DNA of 64,000 bases, taken from positions 1 through 64,000 of the forward strand of contig JAJEKV010000394.1 of NCBI GenBank assembly GCA_021234155.1, read 5' to 3'. The number at the start of each line of letters is the position of its first letter. The first letter of the stretch is position 1. Shown here piece by piece: positions 13,695-52,652 of the stretch. This DNA is from Isoetes taiwanensis (lineage: Eukaryota; Streptophyta; Lycopodiopsida; Isoetales; Isoetaceae). The notes below the pieces were generated by a model. That model was not told the DNA's origin. It did no database searches and saw only the letters and a program-made list of their open reading frames with translations. Both the position numbers and the translations under genes were made by a program.

Positions 13695-16310
13695 TGTACC
13701 CTGTATAGGCGGCTCATCTAGCGAATCGGCGGACCTTAGCTCACATCCCGCCGACATGCGCTGAAAGATTTGGATGCTCTCGACACTTTTGCAGGGCCAC
13801 CGGAATACGCTGCGGATTTGGCTAAGGCCGAGGTGCTCCTCATCTCGTGTTACCGCCTTTGCTTACTGATTTTTCTAATCCGTCCCTGTTTCGATCCATT
13901 GGTACTTATAGCGAGAACACTAGACCAAAGACCCTAGTGGAACCGGGCTTTGGTTTTGCTTCAAATATCAAAGATTTACGATTTGTAGGCTGATTTTGAG
14001 CTGGAAGCCGGATTCTAAACCACCTTTAAGGTTCATTTCTTCTTTTAATTACTTTACATTTTACTTCTGATGATTTATCTCAGGACGCGTGCAAGAGGCT
14101 TTGAATATTTTAAGCAGTGGTCCTGTCAATCGTGTACATTTATAATGGTAGCACAATTCTTCAACCATATCGGCTGCTCGATGGGCCCGATTGTGAAAGA
14201 AAAATACATGGGGTAGATGGTGTTTTGGTTGACTCTGCAATTTCATCGAGGTTTGACTTTTTATTTTAAGATTGTTAAGACCAGAGCTTCAATGTAGCTA
14301 GTTCAAGATTACTAAATGTTAGGGCTTTTTGATCCGAGAAAGCTATGATCTGCTACCTAGAAAAACTTTAACACTGGGTTCTTATCTTCAATTTAATTAA
14401 GATCAACCATGCTGCGAGATTGTATAGACCTACTATAATGGTTTTCGTTCTTTGTTGCAAAGTTTGGCCTTGTAAATGTTTTGGCCGCAATTAGAAAAAG
14501 CTTGCAAATGATAATCTAACTTTTGTAACTTTTATTATATAAAAAACTTTTGTTTAACATCATATTAAAACAAAACCTAATTCCATGCAAGATAGTATTG
14601 CATTAAATTATTTTTTGAGCTTTGAGTGGTGAGCAAGTAGAGTGAGGAAAATGTTGTGAGAGCATGTTTGAGGTAACACTATAGTCAAAGCCTATAACTA
14701 TAGGCTATAGTCTTTTAATTAGTCAAAGTCTATAACTATAGTCAAAGTCTATAACTCTTCAGGACGACATTTGGACATAAGATGCACATTGTAAATGATG
14801 AATTGGAGTCATCATTCTCGATATACATTAAGATCACACGCTTTAAAAAGTTGTAGTGAGACACTAATGTTGGAATATAATATGTGAATATTACGATTGT
14901 TATGAAGCTTTGGACACTAACATTATCAATATCATTGAATTAACTACTACTATTGTAGTATCGTTTCTAGCAAAATGTAACATCAGATCTTACATTGTAA
15001 TATTATCTCCAACTTTTTCTACCCTTAAACAAAGTTGAAAACTTGTTAATGATAGAACCAAGTCCCCTGTTCCATGCCATTGTGGACTCCATGTTTTGTC
15101 AATAGCTGATGTCTAAATGCTCAAAAGTCACTTGGATAAATATCATGCATTTGAACTACATTCTAGGTATTTTGTTGTTCTAAAACAACGTATCTACCCC
15201 TAAGTTGCACAAAGTAACACCACGGTTATAAAATCACTACCACAAATTCACATGCAAATAACTGTTAATTGTAATCTCGGCTTTGTTCCAATATTTTTGG
15301 CCCATAATTACATAAAATCCACTACCACGATTCACAATACGCAAATAAACTTGAATTAGTTGTAACCTTGGTGCCTTGTCCCAATATTTTGCAACGGCAT
15401 TCCTCTATAGAAGCGGCGGTGCTTAGAAATCTTGGGGCACATGTAGGTGGAATACAATATAGTACAAATAAAATCATCATGAATAATAAAATTAATTGGG
15501 CATTTATCCTTTGTTTCCGAGGTATATGTTATCTTAGGGCATTAAGGTTGTACAATAGTAGTACAAAATAAAATCATGTATGAGCAAAGAATTGAAGGGT
15601 AGTTTGCATGATTGTAATTGAAGCTAACCATATAATATCATTACAAAGGATAAGAGAGGAGCAAATCTTGCTTAAAGTAGGAACGATGAATGAAAGTAGG
15701 AACATCAAGTTCAAAATTACACTTGCAATATTACCATTTGGTAATGATGGCATAACCATAATTGTGGGAGAAACATTGTATATCATACATGTCTATATCG
15801 CATCGGGAGCAACGATGTCCAACCTTATTATCCTAGGGAATCTAAGAATGTTTGGCACAACTCTGGGGTGCATTGCATTTAACAACAATATAGATGGTAA
15901 TACTAATAGTTCACTCACCTATATTTTGCGGTAGATAGACATTTTAAATAAGATATCTTGGCACAAATACCCCTCTAAAATGGGTTGTGATCCCAAAAAC
16001 TATGATTATTAGTAGACCGGTTGTCGATGTTTGGAACTACAGAGTTTTGTCAAGGTTCCTCTTTATTCAACTAAACTGCACATTGGAGCAACAATTGTCT
16101 TAGGTTAGGAAGTGGAAAGCTAGTATTACAATTGAAGTTGATGCAGGACGTCCTGGCAGTTGTTCCAAATTGCCTAGAAAGATGCAATTCTCTCAAGTTC
16201 GACTGGACACCAGGTAGACAAAAAAATGAGGAAATTTTCAGCCTTTATATTATAAAGGATAAGGCCACTTTCCCCTCACTTTGAAATTCAGTTTGAGGTC
16301 TCCTGCCTTT
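13695..16310. other. AT-rich DNA with short repeats, no gene
   Basis: No coding exon recognised. A local cluster of the unit AGTCAAAGTCTATAACTAT, with inverted variants, occurs at 14,689-14,757. The rest is low-complexity AT-rich sequence with short open frames only. Confidence 0.5.
14689..14757. repeat. Short direct/inverted repeat cluster (TATAACTATAG units)
   Basis: At least three copies of a unit resembling TAGTCAAAGTCTATAACTA are packed in 70 bp. The first contains the self-complementary CTATAACTATAGGCTATAG region, so the segment can form small hairpins. Confidence 0.5.
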
Positions 16311-17611
16311 GCTGAAATTCCAAGGGCGTACTTTTTCAACATCCTTCTGGGAGGGAAGGCAGAAGGAAGCAACTGCAGACAGGAAGAAATTTCTCAGATC
16401 GGGGATAGCGGGTTGCCAGCAAGAACCTGGTGAATTGTATAAACTCATGGACCATCAAGTAGCAAACCCGCTTGCAAGCCAATCATTTTACGACTAAATC
16501 CCTTTGTGTTAGATTAGATTACTCCTTGGACCACATTACCTGCCTTTCATATGTAGTCCAGTTCTTAACTTGCATCCTTGAAATGTACCAGCCGTGAGAC
16601 TCGTGAGCTGGGTATCAAACCCAGGAGATCCTAATTTTGGGATCAAACTTGCTCTTTGGAGGTGCAGGTAGCAGACAATGTAGGTATAAATTAGCGGCTA
16701 TCTTTTAGAACTTGGCTAAAGTTTAGACTGGAAATTAGGATTCTGGCAATTAATCATGTTTTAGCCAGCATATCTACATGTATTCAGCTTCCCAGCATAC
16801 GTCAATTTCATAAAGTGCAGCTCAAATTGTATTACTCATGTAACAAATTCACTTTTGCAGAGACCAAGCTTGGCATACAAAATCACAAGACAATGGTGAC
16901 ATGTTGACCTTACTGACATTTATGCTGCAGCACTCTCATAAATAGGGATTGATGTCTTGCTGAAATTCCAAGGCATGCTTTTCAACATCCTTCTGGAGGG
17001 AAGGCAGAAGGAAGCAACTGCAGACAGGAAGAAATTTTCAGATCAGGGACAGCCAAAGTTGCCAAGCAAGAACCTGGTGAATTGTATAAACTCATGGACC
17101 ATCCAAGTAGCAAACCCTGCTTGCAAGCCAATCATTTTACGACTAAATCCCTTTGTGTTAGATTAGATTACTCCTCTTGACCACATTACCCAAGCCTTTT
17201 CATGTAGTCCAGTTCTTGCACTTGCATCCTTGAAATGTACCAGCCGTGAGACACGCAGCTGGGTATCAAACCAGGAGATCCTAATTTTGGGATCAAACTT
17301 TTTTTTGGAGGTGCAGGTAGCGAACAATGTAGGTATAAATTAGCGGCTATCTTTTAGAACTTGGCTAAAGTTTAGACTGGAAATTAGGATTCTGCAATTA
17401 ATCATGTTTTAGCTCAGCATATCTACATGTATTCAGCTTCCCAGCATACGTCCAATTTCATAAAGTGCAGCTTCCAAATTGTATTACTCGTGTAACAAAT
17501 TCACTTTTTGCAGAGACCAAGCTTGGCATACAAAAATCACAAGACAATGGTGACATGTTGACCTTACTGACATTTATGCTGCAGCACTTCTCATAAATAG
17601 GGATTGATGTC
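16311..17611 (+). repeat. Tandem duplication, unit about 648 bp
   Basis: Copy 1 (16,311-16,956) and copy 2 (16,959-17,611) both start GCTGAAATTCCAAGG and end AAATAGGGATTGATGTC. They align end to end with many 1-3 base differences (for example GTAGCAGACAATG against GTAGCGAACAATG). The short indels break the open frames seen in each copy. No transposon ends flank it, so a segmental tandem duplication is the simplest reading. Confidence 0.85.
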
Positions 17612-23175: not shown

Positions 23176-25737
23176 GCTCAACCTCAATGGCAAATTATGA
23201 AATGTAACTAATGGAGAGGCTGGCAAATTAAATTGAGGCACTCTACTTGAACAACAAAAGCCTCTATAACAAATGGAGGTTAGCATACCACAGCGAATCA
23301 ATAGCAAACAATATGAACATAAAATCAAAATATCAATGAGCATATGAAAACCTCGGACTTGTTGTGCGAGTACGTGAATAAAAACCTCTATATAAGGAGG
23401 GGTTAGTCGTGCATGCCATACTGGACAAAATATGGCGTTAAAAAAACAATAAAGTTATGAAGAAGGAGGCACAAAGGCCGAGAAAAAACATAAAAAGAAA
23501 GTACATGAAACAAAAAAAATTGCGAGAGGATCCTAATAATGGCCATCATGGAGGCGGAAGACGGTTATAAAGATAACCAAAGGTATAAGTAGCGACATGA
23601 ACCAAAACCCAGCGAGAATCGAGGAGATGGAGGAGGAAACACAATAGTTCTTAAGATGGTGCGGTTGTAAGAAAAAAGCTTACGGAGGAAAAGAATGCGA
23701 ATAGGCAATTGGGCGGTTTGGCATTAAGCGGCAAGGCAAATCGATCGACCTATTGGGGTCCCCAAAGAGTGTCAAAGTGGAGAGCGCCCCGGGAGGACAA
23801 GGAAAAGTGTCCGGATTGAGGGGAGGCAGGGATAGGTAATCCCGACCACTCATTCGAAGGCCGAAGGCGAGGAATAGGCTCAATAGAGATAGAAAAATGA
23901 AAACACATCAAAAAAAATTTCAAAGCCATGAATTGAAGATCCAGGAGAAGAAGAAAGTTTCTTTGGGCAACATTCACGGTGTGGAAACCACATTTTCATG
24001 CTACATACTAAAAGAAATGTACATAAAATTCTGATGCGGAAACTAAAACTATGAAAAAAAAAAATCAATAGCTAAGAACACCAAATGCAGATCATTCTAC
24101 CATTGACACTTCTAGCTCATGTCGGTCGAAAAACAAATCCTACTGTTTTAACCCAAATGTCTCCACAGCACCGCTGCATTACCCTCATGCAAAGCAGGTT
24201 GCACATACAATGGAGAATTATGCCAATGAGAACACCGCAAGCATGCATGTAATATCTCAACGACATAATAAAAGATCCATTGACAATGAGAAGAGGATTA
24301 CACATCAAATGTATCATACAAAATAATAAATCGGGTCTACATTATTCATAATCTTCAAGTGTTCCTTTAATTACATTAGCACAATTCTGCGCATCACAAT
24401 CGTAAAAATTGTAAGAAGGCCAACATGCTTTTCATTTTATCGGGATGTAGGTTGCCATTACCTTATTATGCGATTAATCTTTGTCATTGGATATACATGA
24501 AATATTTTTAAAATAGTGGGCATAACCCGGGACATCATCGGCTCAAATATTATCTAAGGTTCATTGCCATTGCCGTGTTCGAGCTCGAGAGGTCGAATAA
24601 CCAGACATTAAAAGTGACCTCGTAAAAAGGTCACTTTTAATTTTTAATTCATTTATTATTTTTTGGGTTAATTTTACATTAAATTTGTTAACCTAATGTA
24701 ATCTAGATGAAGATAGGGATTTTAGGTTAAAAAATACCTAACTTGTGGTGTGAATGTAAAAACCATTAAAAGCTTAGCGCAATGCTAACTTAGCGGCGAA
24801 AAGCGAAGGTACCCTAAATACAACACATTGAGCGAATAAGATCAATCTATAGAAGTAGACTTCGATTTGAAATCAAAAAGCCCCAAATCTTACGCCACCT
24901 CATCCCACAACATTGATTGCGAATTGATATGCGTGGCGGATCTCAACCATTCATGCGACACATTCCTACCCAAGATGATATATAGTGCCACATCAAGGTG
25001 GTACTTAATATTGTTGACTTTTGATCGATGCCAGCCGAGATCATATTCCTAAATCCAACGGCCCAAATCAAAAGCCCCAAATAAGGGGGCTGCTTGAAAT
25101 TGATTGAGGTGGCTCCATCAGGCGGTCGATCTCGCCGCGTTCGGCGGCCATGCATACCCATCTCTACCAATAAGGGGGCGGGTTGAAGGATTGTGGCGTG
25201 GCTACATGTGGGCCGTTGGATCACGAAATTTGGGCCGGTCCAAAAGCGACACCTTTTATGATTCAATCATCTAGATAGGGCGAAAAACGCTGCATGGAAC
25301 AATTACAGACGCAACTCAGATTATTCCAGCAAGGGAAGTGTTTTAGCATATTCGAGGAAAAACCTACAAACATAAAATTTAGATTTGGTGTTTATAATAA
25401 GCACATGAGCGTCCTTATTTTCTTAAATTTATCAACTACTTTCCTTTTATTAAAAGGCTTAGAATTTTAGAACAGATACCAATATGTGGAAGAGTCTAGC
25501 ACATTATATGAGAATGCGGAGGTTAGACCTTTTTGTTCCTTTGTTAGCAAAAGGGTTACGCTAGATTCTGAGAATAATCCACCTTTAATTTATCTAGGAA
25601 AATAAGCATAGAATTCCATGTATCTAAGGAAATTTAATTTGGCCTTCCATGTGACCATACATTTTACCTTTTGAAATGTTTACGGACAATGCCACTATGT
25701 CATATAATTGTTCCAAGTGGTACAAGCCTAATAACAA
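23176..25737. other. No gene recognised; one perfect hairpin and an old repeat block
   Basis: No exon-like stretch. Contains the hairpin at 24,608-24,640. At about 25,053-25,085 it contains the block CCAACGGCCCAAATCAAAAG, which recurs twice at 39.8 kb. The region ends at Helitron A. Confidence 0.45.
24608..24640. repeat. Perfect 13-bp inverted repeat (hairpin)
   Basis: TTAAAAGTGACCT (24,608-24,620) and AGGTCACTTTTAA (24,628-24,640) are exact complements around the 7-nt loop CGTAAAA. It is not followed by CTAG, so it is not a Helitron 3' end. It is transcription-terminator-like in shape, but its role is unknown. Confidence 0.7.
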
Positions 25738-27557
25738 CTAGTAATGGTGGTGCGTTCTTTGGCTAAATGTGGTTTGTTTTGTGGATGGAAACCTATTCAG
25801 CTTAGACTCATTAACCAAGTCCATCATATCTAGGCTATAAGAGGGTGTGCATTTGATAACCTTCCCCTTTGCTCTATCCACGCATATCCTTTTCCCTCAT
25901 TTTCTTACACACTTTCTTTTTTCCCTTTTCTTATTTTTCCACCGCAGACATTTACTTTTCTCCTTCTCTCTTTTTTTTTTTTTCTTTTTTTTTACCCTCT
26001 TCTCCCTCCTCTTTTCCTTCCTTTTCTCCTTCTCATTTTTCCCTTTTCCCTTTCCCCTTTTTGGTGACTTTTTCCTTCCCTTTTCACCTTTCTCCACCCT
26101 TCCCATTTTTCTCATGCTCTTTTTTCCCCTTTCCTTTTCCCATTCCTTTTGCTTTTCTCTTTTCCTTCCCTTTTCTCATGCCCTTTTTGCATTCCTTTTC
26201 CCCACATTTTTTTTTATGTTTTTCTTCCTCTCTCACCCTCTTCTTCTTTATCTCATGTCTCTTTTTCCCATTTTCTTCTTCCTTTTTCTCATGCCTTTTT
26301 CCTTTCCTTCCCCCCCCCCTCCTTTTCTCTTTTTCCCTTTTCCTTCTTTTTCATCATTTTCCCATCCTTTCCCTTTTTCAGGTGCCCTTTTCCTCTTTCC
26401 TTCTCCCTTCCTTTTCTCTTTCCTTTTCCTTTCCCTTTTCCTTTTTTTTTTCCCATGTATTTTTCCATTCCTTTTTTTTTTTTTTACTTTTCTTAGCCTT
26501 TCCCTACCCTCTTCCCCTTTTCCCAGATCCCTATTCCCTTTTTCTTTTTCTTTTCCCTTTCCTATGCTCTTTTCCCTTTATTTTACCCTTTCGCACCCTT
26601 TCCCTCTTCTAGTTTTTCTGTGCCTTTTTCCCTTCCTCTTTTCCATTTTCCTCCTTATTCCCTTGTTTTTTTTCTTTCCCCTTTTCCCTTTCCCCTTCGC
26701 CTCCATTTCCCTTTTCTTTTTCCTTCTTTTTTCATCCTTTTCTCTTTTTTCCATGCCCTTTCCTCTTTCCTTTCCACCTTTTTTTTTTCCTTCTCTCTTT
26801 TCCTTTTCCATTTTCCCACCCTTTTCCATTCCATTTTTTCCACCTTTTTCCCACATGCCCTTTTCCTCCTTTTCCCACCCTCTTCCCTTTTTCCCTTTTC
26901 CTCTTTTCCTATTCCATGTTTTCATTTCTCTTTTTTGTTTTTGCTTTTCCCCTTCTCTTTTTCCACCTCTTTTCCCTTTTTTTTTTCCTTTCCTCACCCT
27001 TTTCCTCTTCTCGTGCCACTTTCTTTCTCTCTCATTTCCCTCTCCCTTTTTCCTCATGCCCCTTTTCCCTTTTTTGCCTCCTTTTTCCTTTTAGTCCCTT
27101 TTCTATTTTTTCCATGCCCTTTTTTCCCTTCTCTCCATCATTCTTATCTTTCCCTTTTCCTTAGTCACCCTTCCCGAGTCTTCACCTTTTTCCGTTGCCT
27201 ATTTTTCTTCCTTTTCCTCCCTTCCCCTTTTCTTTTTCCTATCCCCATCCTCATCCTTTCCCCTTTTCCTTTTCATAGTGTCCTTTTTCCTTCCTTTTTT
27301 CTCCCTTTCTTTTTCTTTCCTTTTTAATTGCTCTTTTCCTTTCCTTTTCCCTTCTTTCTTTCCCTTTTACCCATGCCTTTTTGCCTCTCACTTTGCCCTT
27401 TTTTCGCCATTTCCCTTTCCTCTTAAAGATGGAGCATTTTTCGAGTGGTGGTGGGAAGTTGTGCGATAAATCTCGGCCTTGAATGCAATCAGGCGATCTC
27501 AACTATCTAAATTAGGGTTTGATTGAAGACATTCAGCTAAAACTTTATAATATAAGA
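25738..27557 (-). mobile_element. Helitron A (minus strand, homopurine cargo)
   Basis: On the minus strand the element begins A|TCTTATATTATAAAG at 27,557. It ends ...ACCATTACTAG|T at 25,738, after a degenerate 3' hairpin region (GCCAAAGAACGCACC). The A|T insertion site without duplication and the TC/CTAG termini are diagnostic of Helitrons. Length is 1,820 bp. The interior from about 25,865 to 27,425 is almost pure pyrimidine on the plus strand (purine on the element strand), so very long open frames through it are composition artefacts. No Rep or helicase coding. It is nearly identical to Helitron B, in opposite orientation. Confidence 0.85.
25865..27425 (+). repeat. Homopyrimidine tract inside Helitron A
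   Basis: About 1.56 kb of CT-only sequence, broken every few tens of bases by CATGCC-type interruptions (CCCATGCCCTTTT and similar). It behaves as a degenerate tandem repeat of CCCTTTTC-like units. The long frames here translate to Phe/Ser/Pro/Leu strings and should not be annotated as proteins. Confidence 0.95.
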
Positions 27558-27684
27558 TTACGGAATAGCAAAAGAGAAAACAAAGCAATGCCAACTAGGT
27601 TTTTAGGCCCATAGGGTTACATGGTTGAGGGGTTTCGACCCCTTGTGGAAATTTCCATGAACATTTCATGAACTAGGTATCTTA
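27558..27684. other. 127-bp spacer between divergent Helitrons
   Basis: Ordinary-composition DNA containing the small hairpin AGGGGT-TTCG-ACCCCT near 27,634 and the palindrome GGAAATTTCC. It is flanked on both sides by the A|TC insertion junctions of A and B. AACTAGGT occurs near both ends (about 27,593 and 27,671). Confidence 0.6.
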
Positions 27685-29493
27685 TCTTATATTATAAAGT
27701 TTTAGCGTATGTCTTCAATCAAACCCTAATTTAGATAGTTGAGATCGTCTCGATTGCATTCAAGGCCGAGATTTATCGCACAACTTCCCACCACCGTGAT
27801 TGGCCATGCTCATTTCGATCTCTTAAGAGGAAAGGAAAATGGCAGAGAAAAGGGCAAAAGTGAGAGGCAAAAAGCATGGGTAAAAGGGAAAGACAATCAG
27901 GAGAAGGGAAAGAAAAGGGAAAAGAGCACGAAAAAAGGGAAAGAAAAGAAAGGGAGAAAAAGGAAGGAAAAAAAGGACACTATGAAAAGGAAAAGGGGGA
28001 AAGGGTGAGGACGAATAGGAAAAGAAAAAGGGGAAAGGAGGAAAAGGAAGAAAAAATAGGGCAACAGCAGGAAAAAGGTGAAGAGGAAAGGGTGACTGGC
28101 GGAAAAAAAAAGGGGAAGATAAGAATGATGGAGAGAAGGAAAAAGGGCATGGAAAAATAGAAAGGGAAGGAAAAAAAGAAAAAGGAGGCGAAAAAAAGGG
28201 AAAAGGGGCATGAGGAAAAGGGAGGGAAATGAGAGAGGAAGAAGAAAGTGCCACGAGAAGAGGAAAAGGGTGAGGAAAAGGAAAAAAAAAAAAAAAAAAA
28301 AAAGGGAAAAAGAGATGGAAAAAAGAGAAAAGGGAAAAGCAAAAACAAAAAGAACAGAAAACATGGAATAGGAAAAGAGGAAAAGGGAAAAGGGGAAGAG
28401 GGTGGGAAAAGGAGGAAAAAGGGCATGTGAAAAAGGTGGAAAAAAATGGAATGGAAAAGGGTGGGAAAATGGAAAGGAAAGAGAAGGAAAAAAAAAAAAG
28501 GGTGGAAAGGAAAGAGGAAAAGGGCATGGAAAAAAAAGAGAAAAGGATGAAAAAAAAGAAGGAAAAAGAAAAAGGAAATGGGAGGCGAAAGGGGAAAGGG
28601 GAAAGGGGAAAGAAAAAAGAACACGAGGAATAAGGAGGGAAAATGGAAAAGAAAAAGAAAAAAGGGGAATAGGGATGGGGAAAAGGGGAAGAGGGTAGGG
28701 AAAGGCGGAAGAAAAAATAAAAAAAGTGGAAAAAGGGAATGGAAAATACATGGGAAAAAGGGAAAAGGAAAAGGAAAGGGAAAGGGAAAGGGAAAAGGGA
28801 AAGGAAAGGGAAAGGAAGGGGAGAAGGAAAGAGGAAAAAAGGGCACCAAAAAAAGGAAAAGGATGGGAAAATGATGAAAAAAGAAGGAAAGGGAAAAAGA
28901 AAAAGGGAGGCGGAAAGGGGGGAAGGAAAGGAAAAAAGGCATGAGAAAAAAGGAAGAAGAAAATGGGAAAAAAGAGACATGAGATAAAGAAGAAGAGGGT
29001 GAGGAGAGGAAGAAAAACATAAAAAAAAGGTGGGGAAAAGGGAATGCAAAAAGGGCATGAGAAAAGGGAAGGGAAAAGAGAAAAGCAAAAGGAATGGGAA
29101 AAGGAAAGGAAAAAAGAGCATGAGAAAAATGGGAAGGGTGGAGAAAGGTGAAAAGGGAAGGAAAAAAGCCGTCAAAAAAGGGAAAGGGAAAGGGAAAAAT
29201 GAGAAGGAGAAAAGGAAGGAAAAGAGGAGGGAGAAGAGGGTAAAAAAGAAAAAAAAAAAAGAGAGAGAGAAGGAGAAAAGTAAATGTGCAGGAAAAATAA
29301 GAAAAGGGAAAAAAGAAAGTGTGTAAGAAAATGAGGAAAAAAGGATATGCAGGATAGAGCAAAGGGAAGGTTATCAAATGCACACCTCTTATAGCCTAGA
29401 TATGATGGACTTGGTTAATGAGTCTAAGCTGAATAGGTTTCCATCCACAAATGTTCCCAATATTTGCCCAGCAACGCTGGGCACCATTACTAG
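27685..29493 (+). mobile_element. Helitron B (plus strand, homopurine cargo)
   Basis: Starts A|TCTTATATTATAAAG at 27,685 and ends at CTAG 29,490-29,493, after the perfect hairpin GCCCAGC-AAC-GCTGGGC (29,466-29,482) and the spacer ACCATTA. Length is 1,809 bp. From about 27,830 to 29,345 it is nearly pure purine, with GGGCATGA-type interruptions. No protein-coding capacity for rolling-circle transposition, so it is non-autonomous. It lies head to head with its sister A, and its 3' end directly abuts the 5' end of Helitron C. Confidence 0.92.
27830..29345 (+). repeat. Homopurine tract inside Helitron B
   Basis: About 1.5 kb of GA-only sequence built from GGGAAAAGG-like units with periodic GGGCATG(A/G) interruptions. 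It is the mirror of the Helitron A tract. Open frames on either strand translate to Lys/Glu/Arg/Gly or Phe/Ser/Pro strings and are artefacts. Confidence 0.95.
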
Positions 29494-29518
29494 TCCTATA
29501 TTATAAAATTATAGTGTA
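29494..29518 (+). mobile_element. 5' terminus of Helitron C, interrupted
   Basis: TCCTATATTATAAAATTATA followed by GTGTA has the form of a Helitron 5' end, but stops after 25 nt at the CTAG of minus-strand Helitron D. The remainder resumes at 37,660 (TGAGCTAAGATG...). Its 5' base sits immediately after the last base of Helitron B. I could not identify its 3' end. Confidence 0.7.
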
Positions 29519-30502
29519 CTAGTAAGGGTACCCAGCGTTGCTGGGTATAAATTTGGGACATGTAAATGATAGGCCATCAATGCTTGCAACTCAAAAGGTG
29601 CAATAAATGATAGGGCAGCAATGCTCTCAACTCGGAAGGTGTCCCTACTTATGTTCTAAGAATTTTGCTTTAACTACCCTTTTAAAGCTTATTTGAAAGC
29701 TTCTGCAAGATCATTTATAGAAGGGTGTGCCCTTTTAAGGCTAGATGCTTTTCATATTTCAAAGTTTCTATAGGATCATTTGTAGAAGGGTGTGCATGGT
29801 AGGCTATGCGCTGAGGTTGAAGTCAAGGTGCAAAAGTTACCTTGTTTATTAAATAATTGTGTATGTAAAGGGTCATTTATAGTGGCATCAAGGTTTAGAT
29901 TTTAGTAAATCATTATAAACACTTACATTTCTCAACAAAAAGAACTAATTAGCCTTCACTTGGCATGGACTATCTATCTTGTTAAATTGGGATTTTCCGG
30001 TCTGACTAAAAACGTTTTTGGAATTTTATATAACTTAATTTCCTAAGATTTTGAGGGGGTTCTCTGCCGGAAAAACTTTCAGGTTCTCCAAAAATCAGGA
30101 AGGAATTTCTCCATACTTTATTGGCAAATTTCCCCCTTCTGCATGGCGGCGTGCATGCCACGATTGCTGATTGGTGGTTGGAAGGATTCTGTGCAGTTCC
30201 GGTGCATAAGGCAGAAAGACGAAGGCCCGGATTTGGAGAAGGGAGGTGCCGATTCGGGCTGGACATAAAAGATGGAAGAATTATTGGATTGCAGGTGCCG
30301 ATTTGGATTGCAGTAGAAGATTGCTCCATATGCATCCAAAGAACATAAAGCTCTGGTATTTTACTTAGTTTTCAACAACTTCTGGACTCATGCGAGATGC
30401 CCACGTCCCATTTTCTGTGTTGATGTTTTCTGATTTGCACAAACAGAAAATTCTATGAAATACAAGCGTGCAGGTATTTTCTTTTATTTGATTTGGTTTC
30501 AG

Positions 30503-30610
30503 ATTTCATCTACAGTCTCAGAAGCAGCCATTGTGTACAAACCTCTGGAAAATGAGAGCTGTCTGCTGGTACTTACTGGTTTAATATTTTTGGCTATTTG
30601 CATTTGCTGG
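30503..30610 (+). pseudogene. Captured exon with hydrophobic segment
   Basis: This 108-bp segment is bounded by TTTCAG and GTAAGT and is open through 36 codons (starts ISSTVSEAAIVYKPLENES, ends GLIFLAICICW). The last half would be membrane-spanning. Both splice sites are near consensus. It lies antisense to Helitron D, so it is probably captured host-gene sequence. Host family unknown. Confidence 0.45.
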
Positions 30611-30733
30611 GTAAGTGGTCTGCTTATAATTTTCTATGTTTTTTAGCTTTGGGGATAAAGACATCGTGTGGAAAATTATGAACCTTCATTCCTTGCTCCT
30701 ATGTTGTCCATAATGACATCATTTCATTTCCAG

Positions 30734-30800
30734 GAAGCCCCTTTGTGGAGTCAGCATGCCTTTCAGCAGCTCGGTTTTTTCTGTTCTGTCTTCAGGCAAG
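30734..30800 (+). pseudogene. Captured exon, next in the same series
   Basis: A 67-bp piece preceded by TTTCCAG and followed by GTTCTT. In the frame continuing from the 30,503 exon it reads EAPLWSQHAFQQLGFFCSVF. It is likely part of the same captured gene fragment. Confidence 0.35.
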
Positions 30801-31576
30801 GTTCTTCAGGTTTTTGAGCTGATAGTGGGATAGAAGGTATGAATGTATGGTGTAGCAGGTAGAGTTATTCTTGATAACATTGATAAGGATTCAAATTTGG
30901 CATTATGCATGATCAGGTGTATCCCCCGATCAGTGACGGCGGCGGCCATACGAGGAATATGAATTGGATGATATTGTTAGCGAGTCAATTAACAGAAGCA
31001 AGAGGCGTAGCTGTTCACCATCAAATAGTAAAGGTATAGACCAAGGAGCTATTAAAAGGTATTGTGGAGCAAAAGCTTATGGGATCAGAATGTTCTGAGT
31101 TGTATTTCCGAACCATAGCTTTCCTATGGATGTATCAAGTTTTACACAAATTGACACCCAACATTGGATATTGGATATGAATGTTTTTGTAGGTGAGAAG
31201 TTGTTTTATTTTTAGATCTATTTTCTATTTATTGCAATATTTATTGATTATTTCTTAAAATGTTCTCTCTCAGGTGAGGCATATGACCAAGTGAATGAAA
31301 TGTGCATATTTCTTCTTAATAGCTTTTACGCCACCGAGAAAAAGCCTTGGCGCTTTATGTCCAATCACCGGTTCAACATTCCCGGTATTGTGGTCTTTGT
31401 TTATACTTCTTGCCCATCTGCGGTATTATCCCCTGTTATGGCCTAAGCCCGGTGGGGCGATGCAACTAAGCGCATCGAGATCTGATTCCGGAATCTGCTA
31501 AAATTGGTATTCTTTGCAGAGGATATAGCATCTCTTTTCGCACTCAACATGGGGCAATATCATCGTGTGGGAGCGA

Positions 31577-31790
31577 CTTGCATTAAAGGTAGGCGAGAAT
31601 CTGTTCAATTATATGCAATCATTTAAGATACTACGAAAAGCAACAAGTTAGTTGTTCCATTTGATATTCTTGACAAATGGTTCAATTTGCATTAAAGGTA
31701 GGGCAGAATCTGTTCAATTATATGCAATCAATTTGATACTACAGAAAGCAACAAGTTAGTTGTTCCATTTGATATTCTTGACAAATGGTT
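31577..31790 (+). repeat. Tandem duplication of about 110 bp in captured sequence
   Basis: GCATTAAAGGTAGG.CGAATC through GACAAATGGTTCAA occurs twice (about 31,577-31,684 and 31,689-31,792). The second copy keeps an open frame; the first has small indels that break it. Confidence 0.8.
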
Positions 31791-31851
31791 CAAGAAGTTC
31801 CAGGAACGTGCAAAGCGGGATCCTGATTATCTTAACCAGTTTACCACATGA
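31711..31851 (+). pseudogene. Captured coding fragment, unidentified
   Basis: A 46-codon open stretch (including DTTESNKLVVPFDILDKW then FKKFQERAKRDPDYLNQF) stops at TGA 31,849-31,851. It is Lys/Asp/Phe-rich and well-mixed, like a real exon. It lies in the same orientation as the 30.5-kb exons and the chromodomain-like exon at 32.5 kb, so all may come from one gene. No family motif seen. Confidence 0.4.
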
Positions 31852-32510
31852 GTTACTAATATGCTGAGGCTATTGGTTAGGGGTTCACTTGGTATAGGAA
31901 TTGTTTCCCACAACAATAGGCTCATCAAACAGTTCTGAGCCTTCCTTTGGGAACTATAATCAGCATTGTTATTGAAAACTGTTAAAAACAGATCTCTTGA
32001 TTTTGCAATGGGTGTTAATTTTCAGTGGCTCTGTTGCTCCAGTGCTTTATATATGTTTCTACTTTCTTCTCCATGTAAAATAGTTTTTGAGCAGCTCTAC
32101 GAATTGTTCCGTCCAAAGAATCATGTTGAGAGTGGCATATGTCCCAAGTATAAGGACATTCCAGAAACCTTTTGCTAACTTCACAGATGTCTAAGGATTG
32201 ATTAAAAGTGCATATGGTATTGTTGCATGGCATCTTTGTTATCTGTGTTTTAGGAGGTTTATATTGGATCATCTTCGACATTTTATAATATAAGCCTTAT
32301 GAATGGTATATGATAGGTTAGATTAGTCTTGATCACCTAGCAGCAAGATCATGGTGTATTTGTTTGGGAGGTTTATATTGGATCTTCTACATCCATAATA
32401 TAATAAGCATGTCGTAAATTTTGCTATAAGACAATGTAGATTGTGAAATTATGTGCCTCCAGGAGCATATTATCTTCAGCTTAACTCATGGGTGGTAGCC
32501 TGTTGTACAG

Positions 32511-32642
32511 GTGTTGAAATGGGATCCGGAATGGATAGAGCCACATCGGGTGCTTGGAAAACGGAAGTTTGTAAAAGGAGCTGGGAACATATGGAACTCT
32601 CAAGAAAACGGGGAATGGCTTTTTAAGTGGAAAGGTCTTTGA
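32511..32642 (+). pseudogene. Captured chromodomain-like exon
   Basis: After the acceptor TTGTACAG, 43 codons read WDPEWIEPHRVLGKRKFVKG and later NGEWLFKWKGL, then TGA. The E-(W/Y)-L-x-K-W-K-G-(L/W) core is the diagnostic chromodomain strand, where aromatic residues bind methyl-lysine. The upstream WDPEW...HRVLGKR segment resembles the approach to chromodomains in plant chromatin-remodelling or silencing proteins. The stop right after WKGL removes the C-terminal helix, so this copy is a fragment. Captured by Helitron D in antisense orientation. Confidence 0.55.
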
Positions 32643-34074
32643 AAATTTGCTCTCTTTCTGGTAAGGGCACTCCATTTCATTGTTTCTTTCTTGGGATCTT
32701 CAGGAAAACGTTATTTGGTTATCATGCTACTGAAACCTTTTGGTTAGCTTCTGATCAAGGTTTGAACAGTTTGTAGTCCTGCTATTTTATCACATACAAG
32801 AATCAATCATCATAACCTCCACAATCTTCCAGGTACAAGTTATTTTAGATTTTGGAAGATAGGATGTGTTCTGAATCATCTTGCGTTTTGTAGTTTCATT
32901 CACTAGAATCTTACAATCTTTCAATTCACATGCTACTATGTATTTGGAAGATTTGCTTACAAATACTGATGGCCCTTTGGTTGTTTCGCATTTTCATTCT
33001 TCACAATGCTCTCAACATACTTAAATATTTTTTCATATTCTTGACAGGATTGGTTGAGCCGTAATAGAGTCAAACGGCTAACATGTCAACTGGGACTATG
33101 CTGGGAGGGTTTTGTAAGCCATCCATCCTTTCAATATCGTTCACCATCTTGACATATTGTAAGATAGAATATTGGCATTTTTACTTTCTTCCTGTCAAAT
33201 TGTCGTTGTAGCACTCTTTTCAAGCTTTAGGACTCCTTGAATAATGATTGTCTTATTTGTTCCTTCTGTTTCCATCTACAAGGGTTGCTTTGTTGCATCT
33301 TGCACCATGTTCTTGCATATGGAGCAGCTCTCTCTGTAGACACTAGCATCTTTTTGTACACATCTCTTATGCTTCTGTACACACTAACATATTGACTGAG
33401 GGTGCTGGCCTAAATGTACCGACTTTAACTGAAGTTGACATCTTTCATTAAACATATAGCACTTTTTTAAGTCTTGACAAGATCACGTGCTTGCCATGTT
33501 GTTGAGGTGAGATTTGAAATCAAAATCATAATCCAAATAATAAATCTATGTAAGTATTTTTGGCACTATTGCAGGAATGTCATGTTGAAGCCTTCAAACC
33601 TTTTTAGATGTGCTTTTACTGAAATTCAATTCCATGTATGTTTGTTATAATATTTGTTGCTTCTATTTCTTACCTTTTATTTTCACCTTGGTCGCCCTGC
33701 CACACAATATTTAACATAGTCACTCTAAATTGAGCCCGCATGCATCACAACCCTGTTCGACAATTCGTCGACAAAGCCTCCTCATAGAATACGACCTTTA
33801 ATGGTGAACTTGCTATGATGTCTGCGCTCATTAATGAACACTTAGTAGGTGTTGTTTGAATGGTTGCAGAAGCCATCAAACAGTGATGACAATTTTATTG
33901 TCTAAAATAGTGGAAAGATTTTTGTTCAAATGTAAAATGTGTTATACTTTGTGTTGAGATTTTACATGAAAATTGTGCCTAACATTAACAAAATTTCAGG
34001 TGTACTATAACTACTCTCCATCATTGGTTATAATACAAGAGGTACATGGCTTATACATAACTTTACACTTTACA

Positions 34075-34620
34075 CATGTCTATGAACTTCCAAATATATT
34101 GCTTCAGTGATTTATTAGTATATTCACAAACATTAATGCACACCTTAACAAAATACATTATTAGCACTAGATAAAAGAATCTCAAGTGATAAACAACACA
34201 AGGTGAACATAAATTGCATACGTATAAATATCCTATCATTATTGAATTGATCATAAAATGTCAATGACATGTGTCTTAAGAACTTCCAAATTTATTGGTC
34301 CAATGATTTGTTAGTATGTTCACAAACGTTAATGCACACCTTAACAAAAGACATTATTAGCACTAGATAAAAGAATTGCAAGTGATAAACAACACAAGGA
34401 GAATATAAATTGCATATGTATATAAATACCCTAACATTATTAAATTGATCATGAAATGTCAATGGAGTGGCATCTATTCAACATGTCATTAGGCATTTTG
34501 CAAGTCAAAATTTCAATGCACACTTTCAATAAAATACATTATAAGCACTAGACAAAATACATTATTAGCACTAGACAAAAAGATTGCGAATGATGAACAA
34601 TGCAAAGAGAACAAAAAATG
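34075..34620 (+). repeat. AT-rich tandem repeat, unit about 190 bp
   Basis: CTTCCAAATWTATTG...AACAACACAAGG blocks recur at about 34,085 and 34,275. A shorter third copy lies near 34,500-34,600, where CATTATTAGCACTAGA(T/C)AAAA recurs. It sits upstream of the orphan Helitron 3' end at 35,130 and is non-coding. Confidence 0.75.
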
Positions 34621-35102
34621 CACATGTATAAACCTCACGTTACATATCCAAAATGGAGTGGTATTATTCCACATGTCATTTAAAAAGACTTAAAACATAC
34701 CACATTCAGATATATTTTATTGATGTTTAAAGCGGCCTCCATCATAAACTTATAAAACAAATGCTTCATGCGACAGTCTATGGTACACTTTCAATCATTT
34801 ACATACTATAGATGCCCACCTCATGTGATAAAGTTCTTTCTCCCATCTCAATTGCAATTCCAATGACAAATAGGAAAGTGCATTTAGCATGCCTATGAAC
34901 TCCTTGCTCTCAACTCACATGCAATTCCAGAGAAAAAGAAAACAATTCATTTGGCATGCCTATAAACTATTTACTCTTATTTCACCATATATATCAACAC
35001 AAATTGCTCAAAGCCTCATTTCAACTTCGTATTGACTATTTGAACTCACCATACATTAATACCAGTTCCAATAGCCAATAGGCCCTTCAAGTTGTTACCA
35101 AC

Positions 35103-35130
35103 GCCCGGCAACGCCGGGCACCATAACTAG
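35103..35130 (+). mobile_element. Helitron 3' terminus H (orphan)
   Basis: Perfect hairpin GCCCGGC-AAC-GCCGGGC (35,103-35,119), spacer ACCATAA and CTAG|T, in plus orientation. It lies inside minus-strand Helitron D, so it should close a nested plus-strand element. No TC...TATATTATAA start was found between 29.5 and 35.1 kb. Confidence 0.75.
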
Positions 35131-35414
35131 TATAGAAAGGTTTCAGTTGCTATGCCATTACATAATCATATTTTAAACACTCAACTGGGCCAGCAGTGAT
35201 GTGCTCAACCTTTAGCTGGAACATGGGAAGATAGTAATTGGTTTCAATTTCATTCGGAACTGTCTATCCTGCGAAGGAGAGGACATTTTCAATAATAATA
35301 AAGTAGTTGAAAAACGTAGTTAAATTAAAAACACGAACACCTAATTGAAACAAATGGAATAACATGTACTATTATATCACTACTTTGGGGATATGAGAGT
35401 GTATTAGTAACATC

Positions 35415-35610
35415 AACTTACCATGAACAAAATCTCATTCGTGAGCACCAACCACGACTTTGCAATTTTAGTTGCTAAAGCATCTATACCGCGTATTCCA
35501 AAAAAGAATCGCCATAAACTTACCATGAACAAAATCTCATTCGTGAGCACCAACCACGACTTTGTAATTTTAGTTGCTAAAGCATCTATACCGCGTATTC
35601 CAAAAAAGTC
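35415..35610 (+). repeat. Near-perfect 102-bp tandem duplication
   Basis: AACTTACCATGAACAAAATC through CGTATTCCAAAAAAG occurs twice with a shift of exactly 102 bp and almost no substitutions. Because 102 is a multiple of three, the open frame repeats a 34-residue unit (NKISFVSTNHDF, then AKASIPRIPKK). The duplication is recent. Confidence 0.9.
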
Positions 35611-36599
35611 GCTCTGTAGTTGAACTAAAGATCTTCGAAGTTATATGTTGTCTATTAACAAAAAAAAGTTCTTGAGATCTTTCTTAGAGCAACTTGGTGC
35701 TTGGTTATCAAGGGCGTGCTAAGCATGTAGATGAGGATAATAGTGTGGGAAGACTGGAAGACTTAAAAGCTGCATCATTATGGTGAGACTTGTGCAAAAA
35801 AATGTTGCACCTTGCCATGCTTGCAGCCTTCTTTGTATAAGCACTGCCATAGTTGGCATATTGATTGCATATTGCATTTTGAAGCATTTGACAACTACAA
35901 TTATATCGTGTTCTAGTAACCTCTCAGACATACAAACAAAGTTTAAAAACTCTGAAGCAAGTTTTGATAGGCCTGGCTGGGTGTTCACGGCAAATGACGC
36001 ATTTCCTTGCAAAGAGAGAGAGAAAAACTTTCCATGAAATACTTTAGCTTCTTATGTCTTCAAGCTATATTCTTCATGCTGCTACATGATGACAAATAGA
36101 CCCAATTTGGGCATATGTCATAAACTGCTTGCTTGCTTATGCCTCAACAAAGCGGTATTGATGGGATCTGGGTTCCATAAATACCTACAATATACAAACT
36201 GCTTGATAAGATGCCTGCTGCAACTAAAGTTAAACATAAATCATGTGACTGAAAACTTCAATCTCCTAACAGTCTAGGTACTTTTTACCTTACTTAGCCA
36301 TGGTCTATTGGTATCAAGGTATCAAGGTACATATAAGACGTGGATGAAACACATGCCACATTCAGAAAAGCACATGGTATTTCATCAAACATCTGTGTCT
36401 TATGCTTTAAATGCTGTAAGAAATGGAAAGTGCATCTCGAAATGGCCTGCTCCAGGCAGTTTCCTCTTCCATACCATTAACTTTGTGGAAGTACTCAAAC
36501 TTTCAAGCTTTTTTTAAATCCTCTACATGCACAGGTTTGTTTGCATCTCTTTGCTCTGCAAAAGCCATTTTCAAAATAATATTTTGGGGCAACCAGCTA

Positions 36600-37260
36600 A
36601 TCTGTGCTGCAGCAACAATGCACAGGGAATTGGAAAAACGCAATGGAGAGCTAGCAGATAAATGGGCAGATCAATGGAAACATACCTTCTGTTGCACGCA
36701 TCCGCTTCTCTGCTCTGCTCTGGCTATTTCCCTTGCCTTTGGTGTGGACAACCAGCAGACCACTTTGGTGTGGCAAAGGGTCCTAAGAATTATACAGCGA
36801 CACATCCCTTCTGCTCAACAACAAATGGCCACTTGGAGCATGGCAGTTACAGGCTTCACCATTGATCAAAGGGACAACCGGTGGAAATGGGATGGATCGG
36901 GATGCTAACTCGACCCATCTTATGAATACATAAATAGCGCAGAGGCCTCCATTGGCGACCTAAGCACCAAGATACTATGGAGCTACCGCAGAGCATATAC
37001 CATTTGGACAATCCGGAAAACTTACACGACCAAATTCATGAAGGAACCGATACTCCGGTGAACATTAGCCCGATGGAATTATGGACCCGACTAATTTGGC
37101 GCAAAGAACAATGCATGTGGAATTGGAAAAACGAATGGAGAGCTAGCGATAAATGGGGGCGATCAATGGAAACCTACCTTACATTTGCACGCATCCGCTT
37201 CGCGCTCGCCTCTGTTTTCGATAGAAAAGGTAAGGACGTTTTCTCTTGAGGCGGAACCCT
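36600..37260 (+). repeat. Direct duplication inside Helitron D (36.6 and 37.1 kb)
   Basis: The stretch around AATTGGAAAAACG.AATGGAGAGCTAGC...GATCAATGGAAAC at 36,630-36,720 recurs at 37,115-37,205. Differences are largely CAG or CTG in the first copy against CG in the second (AGCTAGCAGATAAATGG against AGCTAGCGATAAATGG). Confidence 0.65.
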
Positions 37261-38684
37261 AGAACTCGAGATTTGTTTTAAAAGGACCCTAGAGCTTTCT
37301 CGGCCATCCAATCCAAAGGGGCAAGTGATATTGCCATCGCTAGAAGCTCTGTATCTTATATTAATGAACGTTCTTGGTGAGAAAATGCTGGATAACAGAG
37401 CGGCAAGATGGTAAAGTAGGCAGGTATCTCCGATCCTCATCCTCGATCAAGCACCCTAAATTTGCCTACCTAAATTGAACCCTAAATTGAAATCGGCTAT
37501 TCTTGGGGTTTACGTGCCCTTTTTTTTTTAATATTTTTTGGACGTTACTTTTTTAGCCTTTTTTACGCCACTTTTTAGCCCTAAGATTGCATCATGAAAT
37601 CTCGGCCGTCAAATTTAGGGCGTGGTCCATTACTTGCACTAAAACATTATAATATAAGATGAGCTAAGATGAAAAATCTTTTAAGCCTTTTGAAGTTGGG
37701 TTATATATCTTATTGGGAAAGTACGTCTTTAAGGTTTTTGAAAAACATGGGGACCTTTTTTATGGAACCACTACATATTTCTTGGGGGGTGCTTGGCTAA
37801 GCACCTACGATTTACTTACATGGTGGGCCCTTTATATCTCAAAGATTTACAACTAAAAAAGATATCTTCGTCCTTTGTTTGAAATAACTATTGTTTGTAA
37901 ATATCTCTCCTATATGTGACGAAAAGGTACAAACCTGTATTAAACTTTTATGACCCATGAGAGATAAAAAGGCTACCATGCAATATAAGGACGGAACGAT
38001 GGACGAAAGCTTTTATGGCCTTTTTTTGGCATCAAGACCAATGTGTTGGTAAGTCTAGCTATTTCGAAATTATAAGCCACTTGGGTGCATGAAAGCATTT
38101 GAGACTTATATTATTCACGATAAGGGGTATTATATTATTTTTTAGAAAAAGCCATAGCAATGGTCATTTTGTACATGTAAAATCTCGATTTAGGTCTGTT
38201 AGAATTTTGAACGCAGCCAGTCTACCCTAATCCGTCACGAGGTGAACGACCAGCAGATAGGTAGCCGCCCTTCTTGTATTAGGCCACCATGCATGATGAT
38301 GGAAGTTTAGCTGGCACTTTGCTCGGAGTTTGTTACAGATATGGAGTTTGTTACAGATGTTTTCAATCTGCTTCATCCGATCATTTATATACAGAAATAG
38401 GCTGAAGAATGTACGAAAAACAGCTTTCCCTTATTTTCCATATATACCAGGCTAAGCCTGGTTGGCTCTTACGAGGCGTTCTGCTACGAAATGTAAAAAG
38501 GTGAGCCACCTTTTAGGGTTCTGGTGTATAAATAATTTACTAGGACATTATCCCTTTGCATATATCTCAGTCCCCGTTCTTGTAGCCGCTGGTTTACTCT
38601 CCTTTTGTAGCGGATCACTTAATGTGGTGGTTCTCTGTCTGGCTGAGTGCCCTAGATGGGCAAGCATGAAGGTATCCCAAACAG

Positions 38685-40131: not shown

Positions 40132-41535
40132 TCTCTTAGATTCTATTGGATTCTCAAAGATTCTCTTGAGATTTCCATAAACTCCTTAAGATTCTCTTCA
40201 GATTTTTCCATTATTCCTTAAGATCTTGAGATCCCAAGATTTCTCTAGATTCTTCAAGTTTCTATGTAGATCCTCCTACGTTCTTCAAGATTCCATCAAG
40301 ATTCCCCTAGATTCCCTTATATTATCAAGATTCTATGTAGATTCCCTAGATTCATTTAATTTTGATAAAGATTCACCTAGATTCCCCTATATTATCGAAG
40401 ATTTTATGAAGATTCCCTTGGATTCCCCTAAATTCTCAAAGAATTTTCTAAGATTCCCATAGATTCCCATAGACTCTATTGAGATTGCCCTAGATTCCCA
40501 AAGATTGTCTCAAGATTCACCTAGACTCCCCATGATTCTATGTAGATTCTCTTGGATTCCTTTTAGATTCTATGAAGATTCCTTTAATTCTTATGAGATT
40601 TCATCAAGATTCTTAAAGATTCCTTCAGGATCATATAAAGATTCTCTTAGATTCCATTAAGATTTCCCTAGATTCTTCTAGATTCTCTTAGATTTCAAAG
40701 ATTCTCAGAAGATTCACATTGACTTCCCAAGATTCTATGTAGATTCTCTTAGATTCTCTAAGGTTCTATCAATATTCCCGGATTCTCACCATAGATTCTC
40801 TCGAGATTTCCAAAGATGCCCCAAGATTCCCATGATTCTATGTAGATTCTCTTGGATTCCCTTGGCTTATATAAAGATTCCTTTAGTTTCTCCATGATTT
40901 CATCAAGCATCCCCTAGATTCCTAAAGATTTTATGAAGATTCCTTTAGATTCCTTTAGATCATAGAAAGAATCCCTGAGGTTCTCCAAGATTCCATGAAG
41001 ATTCTCCTAGATTCTCTCAAGATTCATATAGTTTTCTCAAGATTCTATGTATATTTTTCAAGATTCTCTAAAATTCTATCAAGATTCCCTAAATTATCAA
41101 ATATTTCTATGAAGATTCCTAGGTTCCCATAAATTCTTTCGAGACCCCCACATTTCTAAAGATGCCTCAAGATTCATCCAGATTCCCCATGGTTCTATAT
41201 AGATTATCTTGAATTCCCTAAGATTCTATATAGATTCCTCTAGATTCTCCATGATTTCATCAAGATTCCCAAAGATTTTATGAAGATTCTTTTAGATTCC
41301 CCTAGATTCTATGAAAATTCCTTTAGGTTCTCCATTATTTCATCAAGATTCCTGGGATTCCCTCGATTATTAAAGATTTTATGAACATTCCTTTAGATCA
41401 TATGTAGATTCCCTTATGTTCTCCAAGATTCTATCAAGATTCCCTAGAATCTCAAAGATCCCATCAAGATTCCCAAATATTTTCTCAAGATTCACATAAA
41501 TTCCCAAGATTCTATGTAGATTCTCCTAGGTTCTA
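40132..41535 (+). repeat. GATTC-rich degenerate satellite field
   Basis: About 1.4 kb in which AGATTC/AAGATTC recurs every 10-20 bp. Longer motifs such as TTCTATGTAGATTC and CCTAGATTC appear many times, but without a fixed long period. One strand is strongly biased (few GAATC). No coding potential: open frames are runs of Phe, Arg, Leu, Ile and Ser. Confidence 0.9.
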
Positions 41536-43841: not shown

Positions 43842-44445
43842 TTGCTTTCTTTTTACTATTTTGAATTGAATCTCCAAGAATGACCACATTCAAACATGTG
43901 ATTTACATTTGTATCTTGTCATGAGGGATTTGTAGCCTTGCATTAGAGCGATGTTAAGAGTAGTATGATGAAGGCTTTGTTGTGGGAAATTTTTACGGAA
44001 CAATGGGGCAAGTTCTTATTGTAAATATTTGTAGTTGATCTTTATGATGTTTGGGAAAAAGAAAGACAATCCCAGAAGCATGGAAGCATTTCTGGATGTA
44101 ATTAATCCGTCCGTGAATGGGGAGTAGATAAAAATGATGCACATGTTGCCTTCTTTTTACTATTTTGAATTGAATCTCCAAGAATGACCACATTCAGCAT
44201 GTGATTTACATTTGTATACTGTCATGAGGGACTGCAGCTTGCATTAGAATGATGTTAAGAGTAGTATGATGAAGGCTTTGTTGTGGGAAATTTTTACGGA
44301 ACAATGGGGCAAGTTCTTATTGTAAATATTTGCAGTTGATCTTTATGATGTTTGGGAAAAAGAAAGACAATCCCAGAAGCATGGAAGAATTTCAGGATGT
44401 AATTAATCCGTGAATGGGGAGTAGATAAAAATGATGCACATGAGA
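43842..44445 (+). repeat. Tandem duplication, unit about 304 bp
   Basis: TTGAATTGAATCTCCAAGAA through GTGAATGGGGAGTAGATAAA occurs at about 43,842-44,146 and 44,146-44,445. The copies differ at points such as GATTTGTAGCCTTG against GACTGCAGCTTG. Confidence 0.85.
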
Positions 44446-44638
44446 TGATGTAAATTGTTGTTGCAAATACACATGGTACTGGGAACGCCAAAAGAGTAAT
44501 CAGTGAATTGTAGTAGATAAAATGATGCGCATGAGATGCAAATACAAATGAAAGTGCTTATTGTTTATTATTTATGGTTAAGGTACTCTGGAACATAGAA
44601 GGGGTTGGCAAATAGTGCAGCGCCCAATTGGGATGAAG

Positions 44639-44788
44639 TTCGGATGATTCGGCTACAAATTTGGCCTCTGAAATGCATATGGATACCCTAGGTGTAAGTT
44701 GAAGTCTCCTAAGTTCGGATGATTCGGCTACAAATTTGGCCTCTGAAATGCATATGGATACCCTAGGTGTAAGTTGAAGTCTCCTGGA
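44639..44788 (+). repeat. Perfect 75-bp tandem duplication
   Basis: TTCGGATGATTCGGCTACAA through TAAGTTGAAGTCTCCT occurs twice with a 75-bp shift. On the minus strand this preserves an open frame that repeats RLQLTPRVSICISEAKFVAE. It immediately precedes the homopurine tract. Confidence 0.9.
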
Positions 44789-48905: not shown

Positions 48906-49941
48906 TGAGGGCCACCTTCAATGATTTTAATAATAAAATGGCTAGGCAAATCATAACATAGGTTAAAAGATTAATTGCAAGCTTGATAACAAAATGTATT
49001 TTTATACAACATTCTTGTTATTAAAACATTCATGGGGCCTAAATTTAAATAAATGCCCCCACAATAGAGCGTACATACATTTAAATGAATGCCTCCACAA
49101 TAGTGTAGTGCTATGATACAATGATTTCGATATGGCCATTCAATCTTTATCATATCACACATTAAAGGATTCAATTGGAATTGGATGTTTACACCAACTT
49201 CGAATAAATTTATCATATGTTTTGCTAAACCAAAATTTGAGTGTTGTGTTTCATCCTCTTACCAAGCATGCATGAAAAAGATTGCTACTTATTTTTCAAT
49301 GTAGGACTAAATTAGATGATTTGTAGTGGCCTTGCAAATGCAAAGCAACATTGGCATTGCAATGCTATTTTGAATGCGCAGCAATAAAACAACAGCAAGT
49401 TTTGAAACTCTAATAAGTGAATGATGAACAATTGTGAATGGACAATTTTTTGTTCACATATACAAATCCCGGGGGGTTCACCTAGATTATGGGGTATGAA
49501 AGATGTGAGTGCACCAAATGGGTTTTTATATTACATCTCTGGTATCGTATACATAAGAAAAATATAAGGTTTTTATAGTTTGAATGCCGTATGGATACCT
49601 AATAAGGAGTGTGGTTGCACCGGTTTGATTCATATTCAATAAGGGTCCATCAATGATGGGGACAATATGATATGGCTATGATAATATATATTATATATAT
49701 AAATTAATAGAGATATCGTATATGTATGGAAGGGGTTGTCAAGTAAAAGTATTTTGGGCAAGTAATTATATGATATGGGCTGCATTCTTTTACAAATAAT
49801 GTAGTCGTATACAAAGGGTTTTTTCATATCTCAGATACAATGGGTTTTTTGGCAACCTAAGGAACGCACATGGCATATATACCTATAATAGAGGTGAATC
49901 CCCCGGGATACAAATCAATCAAAGAAAACATTGAAGCTTAT

Positions 49942-52386: not shown

Positions 52387-52652
52387 TGGAAACAATCTGA
52401 TTTCTATGATATGTAAAATAGGGTAGATAGCCTGGATTTTACAACATATCAAAGATGTAAACCTGAAATTTGTTAGTCGGGTAATATTGTTGAGAGAATC
52501 CTGATAAACCCTCATGTATATATTCGTAAAATACAAATAGCTGCACCAATTCTTGCTCAAAGAGGTCGAAATGATAGTTGTGTACCTGGCAACTGGAAGA
52601 AGAGATAACTTCAATTTAACATGTGTTGTTTCTTGTTTCATGTCATGCCCAG

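Follow-up and report, generated by a model that had tools for sequence, protein, structure and literature searches.

A composite Helitron in Isoetes taiwanensis that carries a head-to-head pair of purine-rich Helitrons and probably formed by terminator bypass

The window analyzed here, a 64,000-nucleotide stretch of Isoetes taiwanensis contig JAJEKV010000394.1, contains two Helitrons arranged head to head. Helitron A lies at 25738-27557 on the minus strand (1820 bp) and Helitron B at 27685-29493 on the plus strand (1809 bp). Both belong to a family with a purine-rich body, and their matching 5′ ends, in opposite orientations, are separated by a 127-bp spacer (27558-27684). Each element has A/TC at its 5′ end and CTAG/T at its 3′ end (in end and junction sequences, a slash marks the element boundary or insertion point). 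The ends and hairpin of B are intact; the hairpin at the 3′ end of A is not intact in the assembly. A previous reading of this locus from the sequence alone had described the same pair, with the same spacer, and the coordinates and ends bear this out. That reading had also described the arms as almost all pyrimidine and all purine. On the plus strand, the left arm is rich in pyrimidine and the right arm rich in purine, but the description is too strong, as the bodies of A and B are 91% and 92% purine on the element strand. Nor are the arms nearly identical, as had been claimed: when they were aligned globally and the differences counted, 1470 of 1746 aligned columns agreed (84.2%), with 276 substitutions (187 transitions and 89 transversions) and 35 gap openings, while within a joint alignment of 22 copies of the family the identity is 87.2%.

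The pair had further been called a homopurine/homopyrimidine mirror suited to intramolecular triplex (H-DNA). The arms are instead inverted repeats of one another, and the longest exact mirror arm within a body is 12 bases in A and 13 in B, against means of 11.2 (A) and 11.6 (B) and a maximum of 15 in shuffled bodies (20 shuffles each). The exact mirror symmetry of the bodies is no greater than in the shuffles, and the H-DNA reading draws no support from it. The longest purine runs are 70 bases in A and 92 in B, and neither these runs nor the exact mirror arms exceed the shuffled maxima. A further purine-rich tract on the plus strand (44869-46539) has low-complexity matches to both arms; it was considered as a third arm and rejected, the ends of the A and B family being absent by eye. 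Elsewhere in the window are a degenerate array with many GATTCY-like units (40132-41534) and four direct tandem duplications, at 49941-52387 (~1.2 kb, 95%), 16309-17611 (~0.65 kb, 94%), 43842-44442 (~0.3 kb, 94%) and 44636-44785 (~75 bp, 100%).

The family to which A and B belong is abundant. A 27-base pattern of its 5′ end, with up to two mismatches, counted 631 copies genome-wide and none with the reversed control, and a DNA query made of the spacer and both 5′ ends gave at least 82 matches (40 of 863 candidates scored). We sampled the family through 19 regions fetched around 5′ ends, plus L004 and L005. Among 23 elements measured, 22 have a body purine content of 0.89-0.92; the exception, L013 (0.79), is longer and contains a second 5′-end match. 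In all 23, the purine-rich strand is the element's own strand. At the ends, A/TC is present in 19 of 20 copies, CTAG/T in all 20 and the exact hairpin in 17. This count excludes L001A, L001B and L014, in which the 3′ end is broken or absent, while L007 and L010 are absent because the fetched stretch held no complete 3′ end. We found no paper describing a homopurine Helitron in the literature searched, which does not prove absence elsewhere, and the purine-rich family may be more unusual than the composite element in which the pair lies.

That composite, which the sequence-only reading had overlooked, is an 11.9-kb insertion of which the pair forms the 3′ third. Sequence matching the left flank of A (25300-25737) is present at four places, counting the window itself. 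At one of these, C931:475,564-475,977, the match stops exactly at 25737 and the sequence from window position 37660 onwards directly adjoins, so that the junction reads AATAACAA/TGAGC with A/T restored; the window at the same junction has AATAACAA, then CTAG...TAAGA, then TGAGC. Because C931:475,977 joins 25737 to 37660, positions 25738-37659 constitute one insertion of 11,922 bp, hereafter composite Helitron H, lying on the minus strand from TC at 37659 to CTAG at 25738 and inserted at A/T. Read on that strand, TC follows A at its start and CTAG precedes T at its end. The flanks of the window and of C931:475k are 88.8% identical on the left (1176 bp) and 96.4% identical on the right (273 bp), and C931:475k probably never carried the insertion, as opposed to losing it.

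On its own strand, the composite begins with Helitron C (29519-37659, minus strand), which has its own 3′ CTAG with an intact hairpin at 29519. The element is found elsewhere with the same ends. At eight loci with the C 3′ end, taken from 53 matches listed, the flanks beyond the end all differ and A precedes the end on the plus strand; read base by base, the end is CTAG at six loci and TTAG at two. The matches begin at 29517 in four of the eight and at 29503-29510 in the others, at most 16 bases past the end. At six loci with the C 5′ end, taken from 45 matches listed, T lies directly beyond it in every case; L048 has a variant 5′ tip, and L038 has the window's own right flank beside the C 5′ end, with 9 extra bases. 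Another Helitron-like 5′ end on the plus strand, at 42619, resembles the 5′ tip of C. On contig C278, the window's right flank adjoins the 5′ part of C, but the sequence left of 35190 is unrelated; C at L038 (C278:86200-95800) contains a 3-kb insertion that begins and ends with direct repeats (98.6%).

Nested in C is Helitron E (29973-35130, plus strand, 5158 bp). A copy of C on C123 has both ends and lacks E, reading GGACTA/TATAG at the site of E, and compared with C of the window its 3′-end 454 bp are identical, its middle is 96.8% identical and its 5′ part 91.4%. Within E, positions 31702-31851 match the Hikeshi C-terminal domain (PF21057, E 3.1e-6, 27.4 bits against a cut-off of 27), likely a captured gene piece. 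This was the only match to pass the cut-off in a Pfam scan of eight fragments, seven inside the composite and one outside. Two other kinds of similarity, to a rhabdovirus model (E 0.079, below cut-off) and to two different designed proteins in the PDB (E 0.011), were dismissed as chance. Since the longest stop-to-stop frame among those listed in 29494-37660 is 162 aa, and none of the seven fragments from this interval contains a Helitron domain in the Pfam scan, the interval is non-autonomous. Between B and C lies a 25-bp tip on the plus strand (29494-29518), cut off by C, which from its TC start and its likeness to other 5′ tips is probably the start of a Helitron of a further family, D. The tip has 216 copies genome-wide with up to one mismatch, against none for the reversed control, and the CTAG of B directly abuts its TC.

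A, B, C and the composite all have canonical Helitron ends, with TC at the 5′ end, CTRR at the 3′ end, insertion between A and T, and no target duplication. A hairpin shortly before the 3′ end is likewise characteristic of the A and B family. The 3′ ends of B, C and E fold (-13.1 for B, -11.0 for C), against -0.5 for A, one of the three exceptions among the 20 copies; the composite's own 3′ end, as assembled, therefore lacks the hairpin. Its absence from A could reflect later loss, a misreading or termination on CTAG alone.

A second copy of the arrangement lies at C931:821,027-833,346, which aligns to 25418-37604 in one colinear 12.8-kb alignment at 84.5% identity. Its right flank resumes at 37819 (81.3%), with the TAAGA/TGAG right junction recognizable, and its left junction is not clean. 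We take C931:821k to represent a duplicate or alternative version of the locus that bears this one insertion, rather than a second transposition, and one insertion site of the composite is known. Differences between copies cluster over short stretches, frequently at CG or C-A/T-G motifs (judged by eye on the printed alignment), and probably represent context-dependent base-calling error. Such error, if real, restricts how far any identity value can be trusted, and likewise what can be said of the missing hairpin of A, and because the clusters look like base-calling noise, arm identity was dropped as a measure of age.

An inverted chimera produced in assembly might be suspected where mismatches between copies cluster in a manner suggesting base-calling noise, yet the same 12.8-kb arrangement is present on a second contig, and a foldback should yield near-identical arms, whereas A and B differ at 276 substitution sites; we regard this explanation as extremely unlikely. 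The sequence-only reading had offered two origins for the pair: a single aberrant rolling-circle event that copied through the origin, producing both arms together as sisters, or two linked insertions. In keeping with a common event, the two elements come from one family and have matching 5′ ends, and if the 631 copies are assumed to be evenly placed, only ~0.008 pairs would be expected to face head to head across no more than 127 bp. A genome search with exact ends for the same arrangement, with a gap of 112-142 bp, returned the window alone; such a search misses degraded copies, and the pair on C931, found otherwise, was among those missed. The spacer, however, is an internal piece of a dispersed repeat, X, matched by all ten X copies fetched, which were picked from 85 matches listed and from the hits of the earlier search with the spacer and 5′ ends. 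These copies are 79.6-92.1% identical to the spacer; seven of the ten matches extend to at least position 118 of its 127, and one spans positions 6-51 (46 bases) only. Sequence of X continues leftward in all ten copies and is recognizably alike rightward in about six, and X copies exist in which neither A nor B is present at the spacer edges. The inferred insertion point is A/T for A and likewise for B. With the spacer thus derived from within X, the pair is consistent with two distinct insertions at A/T, and the second of the two options is the one that gains support.

Comparison within the family argues in the same direction. In the 22-copy alignment, which omits L013 and L014, B is 88-95% identical to each of 18 other copies, above its 87.2% identity to A, and A is nearer to seven other copies than to B. 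A and B are thus, on this alignment, not each other's nearest sampled relatives. A non-consensus state is common to both in 40 columns, of which four are absent from all 18 reference copies (one under a stricter pair-exclusive count), while 234 columns depart from the consensus in A but not in B, and 192 in B but not in A. The family tree is star-like and does not join A and B; forcing them together costs 5.6 log units, just short of rejection in the AU test (p 0.062). Nor does the tree join the arms at C931:821k with their window counterparts. Those arms have 30 exclusive columns in common with each other, against 21 (A) and 13 (B) with their counterparts, which might be read in favor of sister arms; this pattern is probably noise in the C931 stretch. 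Taken with the spacer, the greater nearness of B to 18 other copies and the few exclusive columns leave a single aberrant event very unlikely as the source of the pair.

The reading that we prefer, at a probability of roughly 0.8, is that the composite arose when transposition of C bypassed C's own terminator and ended at the CTAG of A, carrying along the independently inserted A and B. In this sequence of events, A and B, two non-autonomous Helitrons with purine bodies, would have inserted independently, in opposite orientations, at A/T sites 127 bp apart in X. A Helitron of family D would have come to lie next to B, and C, either already containing E or acquiring it later, would have landed on the minus strand within D, 25 bp from the D 5′ end. 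Rolling-circle transposition would then have begun at the 5′ end of C (37659), run past its intact terminator (29519), and copied the tip of D, the reversed B, the spacer from X and finally A, before stopping at the 3′ CTAG of A; the 11.9-kb product would have inserted at A/T, the present site. On this model, one event accounts for all of the boundaries. The sequences themselves show the element boundaries, the origin of the spacer in X, C elsewhere with the same ends, a copy of C that lacks E, and the insertion-free site; what we infer is in which order the events took place, the donor locus, and bypass as the process. The locus has the features of a bypass product: an intact internal 3′ end (29519), flanking DNA, an outer terminator (25738) and a matching insertion-free site. 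Past 29519 in the direction of C, the terminator of A is the first correctly oriented one among the Helitron terminators recognized. The 5′ tips of C and of the A and B family are closely similar (TCTTATATTATAAtGTTTTAG and TCTTATATTATAAaGTTTTAG), and the hairpin CCCAGCAACGCTGGG is common to B and C; with tips and hairpin this alike, a single transposase could serve both C and the A and B family. Rep-domain matches are plentiful in the genome, at least 150 lying above the PF14214 cut-off (150 of 1813 candidates scored). A search with one pattern, combining an A-type 3′ end with the left part of X, found no donor locus; its sole hit, C974:19384409 (three mismatches), was rejected because it shares only the 3′ tip and has no match to X. 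Besides this negative search, several observations weigh against the model: the missing hairpin of A, the unclean left junction of the C931:821k copy and the failure of the tree to join its arms with those of the window, the single composite insertion site known, and the sequence at C278, for which the model does not account. The composite might also have been built up in place, with C first at the site and A, X, B and D arriving later by no shared transposition. Nested and neighboring Helitrons are common here, E within C being one example, and more same-strand 5′-end matches occur in L006, L013, L014 and L019. Such a build-up is nevertheless improbable, given that X shows no termini of its own at this locus, although the insertion ends exactly at the 3′ CTAG of A, and that the insertion-free site restores A/T across all 11.9 kb.

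The elements and the mechanism are already known, and an event of this kind is uncommon but described; the window presents a clean new case. For Helraiser with an intact end, capture of flanking DNA is reported in ~11.7% of events (PMC4778049). As in the bypass described there, the event proposed here would begin at the element's own 5′ end, pass its 3′ end and use a later terminator, moving flanking DNA. It differs in two respects: the terminator used is that of another Helitron family, and the DNA carried along, 3.8 kb, is mostly an inverted repeat. Adjacent Helitrons in maize (PMC2267711) similarly show a CTAG/TC arrangement with a G/T junction, here formed by the CTAG of B directly on the TC of D. 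The maize pair is head-to-tail in the body text and head-to-head in the abstract; A and B, by contrast, are divergent and lie 127 bp apart. For the composite FoHelis of Fusarium (PMC5148889), the proposal, as here, is that one Helitron inserted into another and that the outer termini then served for transposition. Those elements are non-canonical, fungal and have several 5′ ends, whereas the composite of the window has A/TC...CTAG/T ends and a matching insertion-free site.

The locus thus offers a natural case, with a matching insertion-free site, in which a Helitron apparently passed over an intact terminator of its own in favor of one from another family, and it shows that dense Helitron clusters can become larger composite elements. 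It also sets right the tempting assumption that such a facing pair arose in one event. A further idea, which we consider improbable, is that the strand-fixed purine body performs a function in the element and that bypass ending at a terminator of a different family regularly serves to swap 3′ ends. If true, the purine body might ease strand displacement or form R-loops during rolling-circle copying, and the Helitron families of this genome would regularly trade 3′ ends through bypass. The purine-rich body in itself raises a testable question, namely which sequence rolling-circle elements need or tolerate.
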